From Syntrophus gentianae (GTDB lineage: Bacteria > Desulfobacterota > Syntrophia > Syntrophales > Syntrophaceae), in contig NZ_FOBS01000007.1 of the NCBI RefSeq assembly GCF_900109885.1, positions 1 to 64,000 on the forward strand: 64,000 nt of DNA, read 5' to 3'. Each line of letters opens with the position of its first letter. The first letter of the stretch is position 1. The notes under the pieces are model-generated. The model searched no databases and was not told the origin of the DNA. It saw only the letters and a list, made by a program, of their open reading frames with translations. The position numbers and the translations under genes are program-made. Positions 55,603 through 61,859 of the stretch are shown in pieces.

Positions 55603-55971
55603 TTTTATCTCTCCTTATAAAATATGAAAAGGACGATGGACGCAACCGGCGCTGATTGCATCCTTAATCTGAAAGCGGTAGATTGATGATTCGATACCGT
55701 ATCAAAAATTCAAATAAAAAAATAGAGATGCAAACAAGTACTTCCTGAAATCGGTTAAACGTGATGATTGTAAAGATAGCTTGATTTCAATCCGCAATTG
55801 ACAAATTTTCCACAAATTGCGAAGTTCGTTTTTTATCCTTATTACCATGATATCCAAAATCTTCTAGATGACTAGCGACCTGAAATTATGAAATATTTCA
55901 CTTTTTTGGCAAATTATCATGTGGTATGTTGACAACAAAAAATCGGAAAAAGCGAACTTCGTATATTAATT
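55603..55971. other. AT-rich region before the cassette array
   Basis: About 370 bases of markedly AT-rich DNA with no gene. GCGAAGTTCGTTTTTT (55819-55834) and AAAAAGCGAACTTCGT (55947-55962) are inverted arms 112 bases apart, 14 of 16 complementary. The right arm ends ten bases before the first recombination-type core GTTAGCT at 55972. It could be an attI-like site, the decayed attC of a lost cassette, or the promoter region of the array. No integrase reading frame is present. Confidence 0.5.
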
Positions 55972-55995
55972 GTTAGCTTGAAAGAAGGACGAAAT

Positions 55996-57091: not shown

Positions 57092-57178
57092 AGCTAACAA
57101 CAGCATGAACTCGGACTGGGAAAAACTGCGCAGCTTCGCTATGCAGCTTTTCCCATCCGGTTATGCTGAGCGTTATGG
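57092..57178 (+). repeat. attC recombination site 1
   Basis: An imperfect palindrome of about 87 bases. R'' is AGCTAAC (57092-57098), L'' is AGCATGAAC (57102-57110), L' is GGTTATGCT (57159-57167) and R' is GTTATGG (57172-57178). L'' and L' pair except for one unpaired G in L'', the extrahelical base typical of attC. Inside, CGGACTGGGAAAA pairs with TTTTCCCATCCGG. The G-TT crossover would be at 57172/57173. Confidence 0.82.
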
Positions 57179-57194
57179 TCAGAGGAATGGAACA

Positions 57195-57542
57195 ATGAAA
57201 ATCGCAAAGAATTCGATAGTTCCCTTCGACTTCGAGGGACTGCAAATAATTGACTACACGTCGAAAACCAACCGCTCGTCATCCATAGCGGAGATCATGG
57301 TTCTCCCCGGCGCCAGTCATCCGAAAGCCTATTCAAACAGGTCCGTCAAGTACTGATATGTTGTTTCGGGACGCGTCGAATTCGGTGTTGAAGACAACCT
57401 GTCCGAACTCATTGCTGGCAATGTCTGCGTCATCCCCAAAGGGCAACGGTTCTCATATCGGAATACGTCGAAAGAAACCGCGAAGCTCGTCTTGGTGCAT
57501 ACTCCTTCTTTCGATCTTGAATCCGAAGTACTTGAAAAATGA
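57195..57542 (+). pseudogene. Cupin-domain protein gene with one in-frame TGA
   Basis: The frame from ATG 57195 gives a cupin-like protein (about 115 codons) interrupted only by TGA at codon 54 (57354-57356). Before it: GASHPKAYSNRSVKY; after it: YVVSGRVEFGVED, IPKGQRFSYRNTSKETAKLVLVH and a normal TGA stop. The join KY-x-YVVSGRVEF is the typical cupin motif 1 to strand transition, where Tyr, Cys or Trp would fit. One substitution (for example TGG or TGC to TGA) explains it. No selenocysteine-type hairpin is evident after the TGA. Confidence 0.75.
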
Positions 57543-57577: not shown

Positions 57578-57605
57578 CCATAACGAATAAGGTGATGAAC
57601 GTCAA
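57578..57605 (+). repeat. Left half of attC site 2
   Basis: R'' CCATAAC (57578-57584) is the exact complement of the GTTATGG that starts cassette 2. It is followed by an eight-base spacer-like stretch and L'' GTGATGAAC. No complementary L'/R' half is found before the istB remnant or in the 160 bases after it. Confidence 0.65.
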
Positions 57606-57681: not shown

Positions 57682-58152
57682 TCAGCTGCTAAATGCCAAA
57701 TTATGTTTTTGCGGCTCTGATTGAACCGATGGAATAGCAGCGGTTTCCTTTGTTTTTTGGGATTGCTCCAATCGGTAGCTGGATAAGTTCAACTCCAGGA
57801 TAACGCTGTGATGGACCAATCGGTCAATAGCTGCTGCCGTGGTCATGGGATCTTTAAAGATCTGCTCCCATTTTGAGAACGGCAAATTGCTGGTGATCAT
57901 TATGCTGCTACGCTCATAGCGGTCGGCAAGAAGAGTGAAGAGCACTTCCATCTCCTCTCGGCTTTGCTGCACGTAGCCGATGTCGTCAACGACCAAGGCC
58001 TCATATTTCGCATACTGCTTGAGAACGCGCGCCAGTTTCAGATCACGTTTGGCAATGAGCAGTTCCTGCACCAGCAGGCTGCAGGGAATAAAACGAACCT
58101 GTCGGCCCTGGTGAATCAATTCCTGAGCAATCGCGCACAAGAGGTGAGTGCG
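57682..58152 (-). pseudogene. istB remnant of an IS21-family insertion sequence
   Basis: About 156 codons of the IS21 helper ATPase IstB. Present: THLLCAIAQELIHQGRQVRF just after the Walker A loop, Walker B ALVVDDIGYVQQS, and TSNLPFSKWEQIFKD with the C-terminal DRLVHHSVILELNLSSYR. The Walker A motif and everything N-terminal are missing; similarity stops at about 58152. istA is absent. The remnant sits where the right half of attC2 should be, so it either inserted there or marks a deletion joint. Confidence 0.82.
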
Positions 58153-58300: not shown

Positions 58301-59863
58301 ATGACATTACCGATTGACCTCAACCGCGAAGAAAACCACCTTGTCAACGCTACTGTGATTGTGGGAGACAATGAAATTAGGGGCGTTCCTTGTAAGATAT
58401 ATCTACCCGAACGAATTCATGAAAAGCCATCCATAGTTCTCAAGCCAGTAAAGGATGATGCCAATAGAATAATGGCTTCCTGGAAAGGTGCACTCAAAGC
58501 GACCATCTATGGCTTCGACAGAGAAATCCAGACCACTATCGAGGCTCCGCAGGTCTATTTTTCGGGGGCATCTACAAAATACTGGGGTGACGGTGTTTCT
58601 GGTACCACTGTACCTGGTGAACCACAAGATCTCCACATAATCCATCACCTGAAAAACGACGATTCCCGAAACGGGACTCATATTGTGTTCTGGATCAGCC
58701 CGAACAAATTTCTGACGCCCTTTGTTGTGCTCTCTAGTTCGTATGCTGGGGAAATCAAGTGCGAGCACGCGACGGAACTATCGTTCACCATAAAGGGCGG
58801 GCGCAAACTCGTCTTTGAAAAACACTTTCGCCAAAAAACCGAAAAGAACCATGACATAGTGCGGTGGTCATTCCTGGTCGCGTGCACGGAAATAGAAAGC
58901 CCCGCCAATGACGCCACCACCATCAAGAACGGCATAATGCAGGACATAGATGACTTCTTGTTAGTAGCGTCATTCGCTGCAAACCAGCGTACAGCGTGCC
59001 TAGGATGGACCGCGGTTGACAGAAATGCACATACGACATTTTACCGAGGAAACTACACGTTTCCTCAGCCAGACGATAGCAATAGCCTTGAAGACGGGAT
59101 CATAGATATCAAAGAATTTCAGGAATTCATGGAAACGTTTTACCCTTCATTCCTGTATTTCGAGAATAAGCTTGCACTCCGCAACTCTCTCAATGCTGCG
59201 GTGCCTTCCAAATCCCGCACGCTGGAGACTTCTTTCCTGAACATGTTCGCTGGACTGGAAACCCTCATCTTGGACTTCAAACGGAGAAAAGGCCTAGAAT
59301 TCGTTCTGCCTGAACCTTCTTGGACTGACCTCAAAAAATATCTCAAAACCTGTATAAAGAAATCCACCGAGCCGAAGGTTGAGAAGGCGCAACGAGCATC
59401 GATCTACACTAAGCTTGGAGAATTGAACCGCGTATCGCTCAGAGAAGCTTTTGACGAGTTTTGCAAAGCGTATTCAATTGGTCTTACAGACTTGTGGCCT
59501 GTCTTTGCCGACAACCAAGAGACAGGCCTTTGCGACATAAGTAACAAGCTCATTCATGGAGACCCATTTCCGCACGATTTGATTGCGGCTCTGTCCATAG
59601 CTCGTGAACACATGGAGTATGTCCTGCAACGGGCAATACTTGGTGTTTTGGGCTGGAACGTTAAGAAGACAAAGATAAATCCGGCCTACCTTCGGGTGAA
59701 CCTCTGCGCCATTAAGGAATTACCAGCAGCAAAAGAGACGCTTTCTGCGTACGTGAACAGCGAAGAACCATCAGAAGTAACAGCCCTTCGAGAGCCGGAT
59801 GCTATGTCAATGCCGAAGCTTTGCGAGGACGACACGGGACAACCCGATATTGACGGAAGCTAA
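58301..59863 (+). CDS. HEPN/ApeA-like protein (candidate defence factor)
   Basis: 520-residue protein without a signal peptide. The first ~270 residues form a beta-rich domain (VNATVIVGDNEIRGVPCKIYL, GTHIVFWISPN). From about 300 it is helical: RTLETSFLNMFAGLETLILDF, LNRVSLREAFDEF, then SNKLIHGDPFP at about 414-424 and REHMEYVLQRAILGVLGW. This layout matches ApeA-type proteins, whose C-terminal HEPN domain is an RNase with RX4-6H. Here Ser414 stands where the Arg of R-N-x-x-x-H would be; His419 is kept. Assignment is by pattern only. Its stop codon lies at the intron boundary. Confidence 0.6.
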   Translation: MTLPIDLNREENHLVNATVIVGDNEIRGVPCKIYLPERIHEKPSIVLKPVKDDANRIMASWKGALKATIYGFDREIQTTIEAPQVYFSGASTKYWGDGVSGTTVPGEPQDLHIIHHLKNDDSRNGTHIVFWISPNKFLTPFVVLSSSYAGEIKCEHATELSFTIKGGRKLVFEKHFRQKTEKNHDIVRWSFLVACTEIESPANDATTIKNGIMQDIDDFLLVASFAANQRTACLGWTAVDRNAHTTFYRGNYTFPQPDDSNSLEDGIIDIKEFQEFMETFYPSFLYFENKLALRNSLNAAVPSKSRTLETSFLNMFAGLETLILDFKRRKGLEFVLPEPSWTDLKKYLKTCIKKSTEPKVEKAQRASIYTKLGELNRVSLREAFDEFCKAYSIGLTDLWPVFADNQETGLCDISNKLIHGDPFPHDLIAALSIAREHMEYVLQRAILGVLGWNVKKTKINPAYLRVNLCAIKELPAAKETLSAYVNSEEPSEVTALREPDAMSMPKLCEDDTGQPDIDGS

Positions 59864-61767
59864 TCGGGTAGCCGGGGGTTTTTCTCCCCCAGCCCCCACA
59901 CCACCCGGCATGCGGGTCCGCACCGGGCGGTTCACAGAGATTACCGGTCCGTAGCCGGGTAGTGAATTTGAACCCACAGCTCTTTGACAGATAGAAGCCC
60001 TTGATCCTTGAGCCATTTGTTGGTCATTCCCGTTTGCGTTGCCAATGTCCGGGACAAATGCCATGGACCTTTGCGGCTGATCGCCACAGAGATAGCCACA
60101 TGGAGAGTTGTTCCCAGTTTGCAAAGCTCCCGTACCTTGGTTCTTGCCCAGCGCCACTGTTTGAAGTAGCACATTCGCAAGCGCCTTCTCAGCCAGGAGT
60201 CTATTTCCGGAATCGGCCTATAATATTCCGAAATCCCGAAGTAGTTCATCCAGCCGCGGAGATATTCGGCAAGCTTCTGATACCGATAGCCCATGGAGAC
60301 AAACCAGGACCGACCGGTCAGCTCTTTGACCCTTCGCTTGAATTCACGGAAGGCTTTCTCCGACCAGTGAATCTTGGTTCCACGGAAAGTGAAGCCAAGA
60401 AAGACAGCCTGATTTGTCGGGACGACTCGGCTTTTCTCCTCGTTGACCTTGAGTTTGAGGGTGCGTTCCAGGAAGCGTTTCAGGCTTCCCATGACCCGTT
60501 CGCCCGCCCGTCGGCTTTTCACCAGAACGATGAAGTCGTCGGCATAGCGAACAAAACGATGTCCACGCTTCTCAAGCTCTTTATCGAGATCATCCAGGAA
60601 AATGTTGGCAAGTAATGGTTACAAGGGACCACCCGGTGTGACTCCCAGGTGGGTTTCCTGCAAGCGGTCCTGGTTAATTACTCCGGCACGCAAGTATTTT
60701 CCGATCAGGCGCAGTAACCGTTTATCGCGTACTTTTCGCGCCACACGGTGCATCAGGACATCGTGGTTGACTGTGTCGAAAAACTTCGGCAGGTCCATAT
60801 CGACGGCGATGCGATAGCCTTCACGGATGTACGCGCGAACCTTGTACACCGCATGATGGGCGGACCGTCCAGGACGGAAACCGAAGCTTGAATCCGAAAA
60901 GGTCGGTTCAAAGATCGGAGTCAAAACCTGAGCGATGGCCTGTTGGATCAGCCGGTCGAGAACGGTCGGGATGCCCAGAGGACGAGTTCCCCCTGTTGGT
61001 TTTGGAATCTCTACCCGTCGTACCGGTGAGGGTTGATACTTACCTGTTAAAAGAGATTCGCGAATTCCGGTCCAGAAAGGTCTGGTATGGTCTGGAAACT
61101 GCTCGATGGCGATGCCATCGATACCGGGTGCGCCGCGATTGGCCTTTACCCTTTTCCAAGCCACTGCCATGTTCTCTTTGGAAAGAATCCACTCCAGCAA
61201 GCGCTCATTTGGGTCGTACGATTCCACGATGCGCCCCATGGGCACTTCTCCGTACGGATTCATCATGTCCTGAGAGCTCATAGAGGTTCTTCCCTTCTCT
61301 GTGTTCGGCCCTTCGGCGGGGTAAGTCTTTCCCGGCTTTTCTCCTTTCGCCGGGCTTGTTTCCTCTCGCCTAATATGGCCTCTGCTGACTCCTGTCCGGC
61401 CCTCCGCCATGTTGCCATGACGGGCGCCACTCCCGGAGGAGTTGCAAACCGGGCAGGTCTCCCCGGACTCTTTTCAGTACCCCCTTGAGGGGTATAAGAA
61501 CGTAAACTGTGACTATGCAACCGCAGCATTTACCGTATCTCCCGAATCCAGGGCTTTTTCATGTCGTGCTGACTTACCCGGAGACTCAGCCTTGTATGTT
61601 GTTTCTGTTCGTCGGCTCATAGCTTTGCACTCCGGCTTCCTTCGGACGGTCTCTCACAGTTCCGCCCTTGCCTTCGACTAGTACTTGTGTCAATGTATAA
61701 AGCATTGACAGGATTCACATACAGGGGGCTTTCACCCCATAAGTTCACGCCCGTGCCGGGCGTACAC
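59864..61767 (-). mobile_element. Class C group II intron inserted in attC (class C-attC type)
   Basis: About 1.9 kb, transcribed opposite to the cassette genes. The 5' end reads GTGTACGCCCGGCACGGGC (from 61767), a class C start. The 3' end has the domain V/VI pair: CGGTGCGGACCCGCATGCCG, a GGGGGAGAAAAACCCCC hairpin and a CTACCCGAT end (about 59864-59930). The boundaries are good to one or two bases. The ribozyme 5' domains occupy about 61290-61767 and the reverse transcriptase lies in domain IV. Insertion into the bottom strand of attC is the known habit of this subgroup. Confidence 0.82.
59941..61281 (-). pseudogene. Group II intron reverse transcriptase/maturase, one nonsense codon
   Basis: 446 codons from the ATG at 61281 (MSSQDMMNPYGEVP), with RT blocks GKYQPSPVRRVEIPKPTGGTRPLGIP, FGFRPGRSAHHAV, VDMDLPKFFDTVNHD, GVTPGGPL-stop-PLLANIFLDDLD and the catalytic YADD in FVRYADDFIVLVKS. 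The maturase domain with YLRGWMNYFGISE follows. The only break is TAA at codon 221 (60619-60621), where the family has Ser (GGPLSPLL), so a single TCA-to-TAA change inactivated it. There is no endonuclease domain, as usual for class C. Confidence 0.88.
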
Positions 61768-61830
61768 CACAGCATCAACTCGGACTGGCAATTCCGCTGC
61801 GCTCCATTGCCAGCCGGTTACGCGGAACAG
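61768..61830 (+). repeat. Right part of attC site 3
   Basis: CAGCATCAACTCGGACTGGC (from 61770) and GCCAGCCGGTTACGC (61809-61823) form the stem, again with one unpaired base (C) in L''. It is closely related to attC1: the segment AGCAT-n-AACTCGGACTGG is common to both. R'' lies on the other side of the intron at about 59857-59863. R' is not recognisable. Confidence 0.68.
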
Positions 61831-61859
61831 GTCAGAACAGTGCTGTAAGGAGGTGACGA

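Follow-up and report, generated by a model that had tools for sequence, protein, structure and literature searches.

A group IIC-attC intron with an interrupted protein gene splits an attC site of Syntrophus gentianae

The minus strand of positions 59863-61765 in the window, the whole analyzed stretch of 64,000 nucleotides from Syntrophus gentianae (contig NZ_FOBS01000007.1), is a group IIC intron, complete and 1,903 nt long, as indicated by Rfam and by copies in related genomes. It splits the R'' box of the attC site behind cassette 3 of an integron array, and its intron-encoded protein (IEP) is interrupted by one in-frame stop codon (Table 1). With high confidence, this arrangement is best explained by retrohoming of the intron into the R'' box of the cassette attC, which would have disabled the site, and a subsequent nonsense mutation in the IEP gene.

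Table 1. Features of the intron, the split attC, and the surrounding integron array.
Feature	Positions	Strand	Evidence and remarks
attI/leader region	55799-55974	+	84% identity to the leader next to the broken intI of contig C2
attC1, intact; R'' AGCTAAC at 57092, R' GTTATGG at 57172	57092-57178	+	Fold, sequence alignment
R'' of cassette 2, CCATAAC	57578-57584	+	Sequence; exact complement of the cassette start GTTATGG (57172)
Cassette 3 gene, 520 aa	58301-59863	+	ORF
Split attC, first part of R'', AGCTA	59858-59862	+	Sequence; alignment to attC1
Group IIC-attC intron, 5' GTACGCCCGG ... CTACCCGAT 3'	59863-61765	-	Rfam; filled and empty aadA1 attC; aligned copies of relatives
Domains V and VI, CGC catalytic triad, bulged A at 59869	59863-59932	-	Rfam Intron_gpII; fold
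IEP (RT and maturase domain), interrupted by one in-frame TAA	59941-61410	-	ORF reading, profile searches
In-frame TAA; serine codon TCA/TCG/TCC in relatives (GGPL-S-PLLAN)	60619-60621	-	Alignment
Domains II-IV region, Rfam group-II-D1D4-1	61308-61426	-	Rfam
Domain I region, Rfam group-II-D1D4-3	61499-61663	-	Rfam, 114 bits
EBS1 tetramer ACGA, facing IBS1 TGGT at 61766-61769	61564-61567	-	Alignment; pairing by inspection
Split attC, remainder: AC of R'', L'' (ACTCGGACTGGC), loop, L' (GCCAGCCGGTTA)	61766-61835	+	Fold; attC1 alignment

Identity and ends of the intron

A sequence-only reading of the window had assigned the element to the class C group II introns and had placed it opposite to the cassette genes. 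The Rfam domains, the fold of domains V and VI, and the RT/maturase character of the IEP agree with this class, and the cassette genes are indeed on the plus strand. The Rfam matches for the regions of domain I, domains II-IV, and domains V/VI follow each other in the correct order along the intron. Domains V and VI both fold as expected (z = -4.35). The fold shows the CGC triad and a two-base bulge as well as the bulged A, which lies 7 nt from the 3' end. A CGC triad in domain V is a mark of class C; here, it was read off the alignment.

The earlier placement of the ends at 59864 and 61767 was roughly right but not exact, since the GT on the 5' side belongs to the exon and the 3' end was off by one base. 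In an alignment with the relatives, the conserved block stops at CTACCCGAT (59863) in nearly all copies. Positioning of the 5' end needs outside evidence because the preceding GT is conserved as well, as part of the target. This evidence came from the aadA1 attC on plasmids. With a slash marking each exon-intron or exon-exon junction, the filled site reads ...GAATTGT/GTACGCCC...CTACCCGAT/TAGACATT (in a shorter reading, GAATTGT/GTACGCCC ... CTACCCGAT/TAGAC). The empty site is GAATTGTTAGACATT, with at least 80% query coverage in 2,070 plasmid records, or, in a second rendering from these records, GAATTGTTAGAC. By homology, this pair sets the ends of the window's intron at 59863-61765, with GTACGCCCGG as the 5' end at 61765, and it rules out GTGTACG at 61767 as the intron start. 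A slide by one base would be possible in principle, but group II introns start with GU and end with AY, and the ends 59863-61765 are preferred because they fit this rule.

The intron-encoded protein

The IEP matches TIGR04416 at 411 bits. When read through the stop codon, it contains an RVT_1 and a GIIM domain with a weakly matching, overlapping RdRP_1 but no endonuclease domain. A serine codon occupies the position of the TAA in every relative inspected. Due to this in-frame stop, the copy in the window is probably immobile and, short of a related protein acting in trans, probably stranded. Among the other IEPs in the genome, none is close, the next nearest being 37% identical.

The nonsense codon might alternatively be a sequencing error in a fully active intron, because the rest of the intron is complete, a single changed base suffices, and the assembly is a draft of 71 contigs. 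This is unlikely. The change is a substitution and not an indel in a homopolymer, the genome is without another close IEP and holds only fragments of related introns, and the Rfam score of domain I is below that of several relatives, as in decay.

The integron array and the split attC

The array begins at an attI, recognized by homology, and its first cassette starts with GTTAGCT at 55972. No match to intI was found on the contig of the window, in which only a few codons of this gene are left, and contig C2 carries the genome's single intI-like gene, which is broken across frames and contains an internal TAA. Excision of a cassette follows the logic that the cassette start is complementary to its own R''. 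This is the case for cassette 1, whose start GTTAGCT and R'' AGCTAAC are exact complements, and for the R'' of cassette 2 (Table 1). The remainder of the cassette 2 attC is lost beside a remnant of an IS21 istB. This truncated istB (57682-58140, minus strand) seems to replace most of that attC. Cassette 2 itself (57189-57540) encodes a protein that appears cupin-like by eye, although it has no family match; a TGA interrupts the frame at about 57354, and the gene is likely a pseudogene. With intI lost from the window and the cassette 2 attC lost beside the istB remnant, the array looks old and decaying.

The protein of cassette 3 had no match in Pfam, NCBIfam, or PADLOC and no homologue in the 155 genomes of the order. 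The stop codon TAA of its gene overlaps R'' and is kept with or without the intron, because the intron end likewise supplies an A at this place.

Removal of the intron yields the site GGAAGCTA/ACCACAGCATCAACTCGG, in which the R'' box AGCTAAC is restored; at the split site, this motif is present only once the intron is removed. In the rejoined top strand, GGAAGCTA/ACCACAGCATCAACTCGGACTGG, the stretch from R'' to L'' has the same length as in attC1, GCAGCTAACAACAGCATGAACTCGGACTGG, and nearly identical letters. Thus, the earlier claim that joining the exons restores AGCTAAC and gives a near match to the start of attC1 held in the alignment with attC1, and the corrected ends give a better rejoined site than the ends proposed before. 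Splicing at these ends would join the exons as GGAAGCTA/ACCACAGC.

The split attC contains R'', L'', and L'. Its L'' CCAGTCCGAGTT is identical to that of attC1, and the L box folds as in attC1, including the unpaired bases. The R' box could not be recognized in the fold or in the alignment to attC1, the GTTATGG end being lost, and the rejoined strand folds the L box only. A covariance model from 18 attC sites obtained no base pairs, with arms misaligned due to the loop lengths, and was replaced by a DNA search. In the genus Syntrophus, there was an empty attC of the same type, 90% identical to attC1 and ending in ...GATGCGGTTGTTATGC, but cassette 3 without the intron was found neither in the genus nor in the 155 genomes of the order. 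The empty site is consequently deduced from homologous attCs and not from this locus.

The target site in related introns

DNA matches to the intron were present in 75 of the 155 genomes of the order. The 5' junction motif, with one mismatch allowed, occurred in 26 of 154 genomes, compared to none for the reversed control. From the relatives and the plasmids, distinct exons only were collected, 68 on the 5' side and 59 on the 3' side, giving the junction consensus T(T/G)GT/T(A/G)(G/T). In the 5' exons, position -4 is T (91%), -3 is T (78%) or G (22%), -2 is G (97%), and -1 is T (94%); in the 3' exons, +1 is T (97%), +2 is A (63%) or G (24%), and +3 is G (68%) or T (24%). This is the core GTTRRRY of the attC R'' box, read on the bottom strand and cut after GT. 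The junction in the window did not arise by chance, because the identical junction recurs in these exons. The window's target is TGGT/T; TGGT is found in 11 and TTGT in 48 of the 5' exons. The published target consensus of group IIC-attC introns is TTGT/T (PMC7923331). The junction in the window agrees with it and with the use of the attC bottom strand, and the earlier statement that the target choice is that reported for class C-attC introns was therefore correct.

The pairing of EBS1 with IBS1 holds across the family. In most copies, EBS1 is ACAA and complementary to TTGT, but in the window, ACGA and TGGT pair at only three of the four positions. Locus L032 combines EBS1 ACCA with IBS1 TGGT, although such a covariation occurred in too few introns to count. 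Upstream of this short IBS1-EBS1 pairing, the L-box hairpin stands in place of IBS2. A strict R' motif at the right distance was present in 24 of the 68 5' exons, compared to 5% in shuffled sequences. Complementarity between R' and R'' in matched versus swapped exon pairs was uninformative as a test (45.0 versus 43.1, standard deviation 3.9), because the RRRY of R' in an integrated array belongs to the next cassette.

Members of the family also occur outside attC sites. Three 100% identical introns of 1,884 nt with an intact protein were located in L044 (1916-3799 and 4437-6320) and L045 (1078-2961). The L044 pair sits in neighboring attCs on a deltaproteobacterial contig, and the L045 copy, from a Bacteroidetes bin, follows a plain palindrome. 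Their identity means either recent movement or mis-binning. As judged by the L045 insertion, the family does not insert exclusively into attC. The genome that contains the window also harbors truncated 5' fragments of related introns, in L002 (1501-1812), L003 (1501-1683), and L005 (1501-1532). The L002 fragment follows an attC hairpin, and that in L005 comprises only about 32 bp.

Origin of the split site

Judged from the intron family, the intron RNA, together with the IEP, most likely entered the attC by reverse splicing into its bottom strand in the folded state, with the hairpin of the attC and the EBS1-IBS1 pairing as guides. The insertion point would be in the R'' box, after GT and before TRRRY. 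Such a simple insertion implies that the intron-free site of cassette 3 would have been GGAAGCTAACCACAGC. After insertion, cassette 3 would have been cut off from the rest of its attC. Since R'' is now 1.9 kb away from its partner boxes, the split attC is probably closed to the integrase. The IEP would later have gained the nonsense codon; the resulting copy is probably no longer mobile and probably splices poorly.

Three features speak against a simple insertion: the IBS1-EBS1 pairing at three of four positions, the unrecognizable R', and the missing intron-free cassette 3. Recombination between two intron copies may instead have joined the intron and an attC half to cassette 3, which in this case never owned this attC (for the cassette-formation model of Leon and Roy, see PMC7923331). 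The degenerate R' side, the lack of an empty copy of cassette 3 among the genomes searched, and the other intron fragments in the genome, at attC and non-attC places, would agree with such an event. It is nevertheless highly unlikely, because the 3' exon TAGCTTCC completes a proper R'' core, as simple insertion would, and the stop codon of cassette 3 overlaps R'' as in ordinary cassettes.

That the target was an ordinary terminator-like hairpin merely resembling an attC is hardly credible: class C introns often insert after terminators (PMC4424553) and an intron identical to two attC copies sits after the non-attC palindrome in L045, but L'' is an exact copy of that of attC1, the L box folds as in attC1 with its unpaired bases, and R'' is restored. 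Retrohoming into an attC remains the preferred explanation. The earlier reading had gone further and regarded the intron as an internal proof that the element behind cassette 3 is an attC. With R'', L'', and L' present, this was slightly too strong, because the R' half is degenerate and the family also enters a non-attC palindrome. The intron is strong, yet not absolute, proof of a working attC.

Related introns without a protein gene

A protein gene is missing from most of the copies in the order that retain both ends. ORF-less copies of 490-760 nt are those in L017, L032, L039, L102 to L105, L107, and L108, and the ORF-less introns in L017, L032, L039, L102, L103, L104, L107, and L108 are mostly positioned in attC-like sites. 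Those in L032, L039, and L104 match all three Rfam models. The domain I scores of the ORF-less introns in L102, L032, L105, and L104 were 135-140 bits, compared to 132-137 bits for the protein-encoding introns in L014, L131, and L132, and 114 bits for the window's intron. One remnant of domain IV is common to L032, L039, L102, and L108, which come from four genomes and three families. The mean pairwise identity of these four fell from 90% in domains V-VI to 77% in domain I and 68% in the domain IV remnant. This gradient would be as expected for a ribozyme under constraint after loss of the gene. Two miniatures, in L110 (403-582, plus strand, 180 nt) and L111 (403-523, counted on the minus strand, 121 nt), possess both ends, little else, and proper attC junctions; they cannot be ribozymes.

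No RT match was present in the metagenome-assembled genome (MAG) of L039, which is 99% complete, and the other MAGs have distant ones. A review describes ORF-less group II introns as rare in bacteria, with a related protein present in nearly all cases (PMC4424553). Incompleteness of MAGs and mis-binning are the main caveats here. With these caveats, the full ribozyme, the varied cassette sites, the occurrence in several families, and at least one near-complete MAG with no detectable intron protein could tentatively be read as a persistent lineage of ORF-less IIC-attC introns in the Syntrophales, which would be non-autonomous and depend for their spread on cassette transfer or on proteins supplied by other cells. 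This is possible rather than probable. No description of ORF-less IIC-attC introns was found in the literature searched, where most subscription papers are missing.

Comparison with known systems

The intron in the window is a clean but ordinary member of the known IIC-attC family. Most known cases come from resistance integrons, and to these it adds a chromosomal one of the Syntrophales type. The junctions collected from about 60 distinct sites allow the target rule to be drawn as a logo. The ORF-less relatives, which were less expected, would matter more. They offer a natural set for testing mobilization in trans and the idea that such introns help to build cassettes. Promoters of IIC-attC introns and cassette formation are treated in PMC7923331 and PMC8876359; no outward sigma-70 type promoter was found in or beside the intron of the window.

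The closest relative, on contig JAURXV010000164 of a Syntrophales MAG (L043, which equals L014), is 88% identical over the whole intron and 87% in the IEP, which belongs to the same clade, and it also sits in an attC. Its IEP is intact, whereas that of the window is broken. The plasmid-borne IIC-attC introns of the S.ma.I2 kind, found in class 1 integron arrays by aadA1, dfrA14, blaGES-24, and blaIMP-38, have the same ends as the window's intron and share with it the TTGT/T target, the attC bottom strand, the opposite orientation, and the RT/maturase. In contrast, the broken IEP of the window is only 52-55% identical to theirs, which form a separate clade, and its host is a chromosome of the Syntrophales kind. 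The nearest IEPs come from attC-inserted introns; the deep forks to the plasmid clade are unresolved in the tree. Introns of the GsI-IIC type, which follow terminators, possess a homologous RT/maturase (E = 1e-139 to the solved GsI-IIC RT), but their target is a terminator, while that of the intron in the window is an attC.
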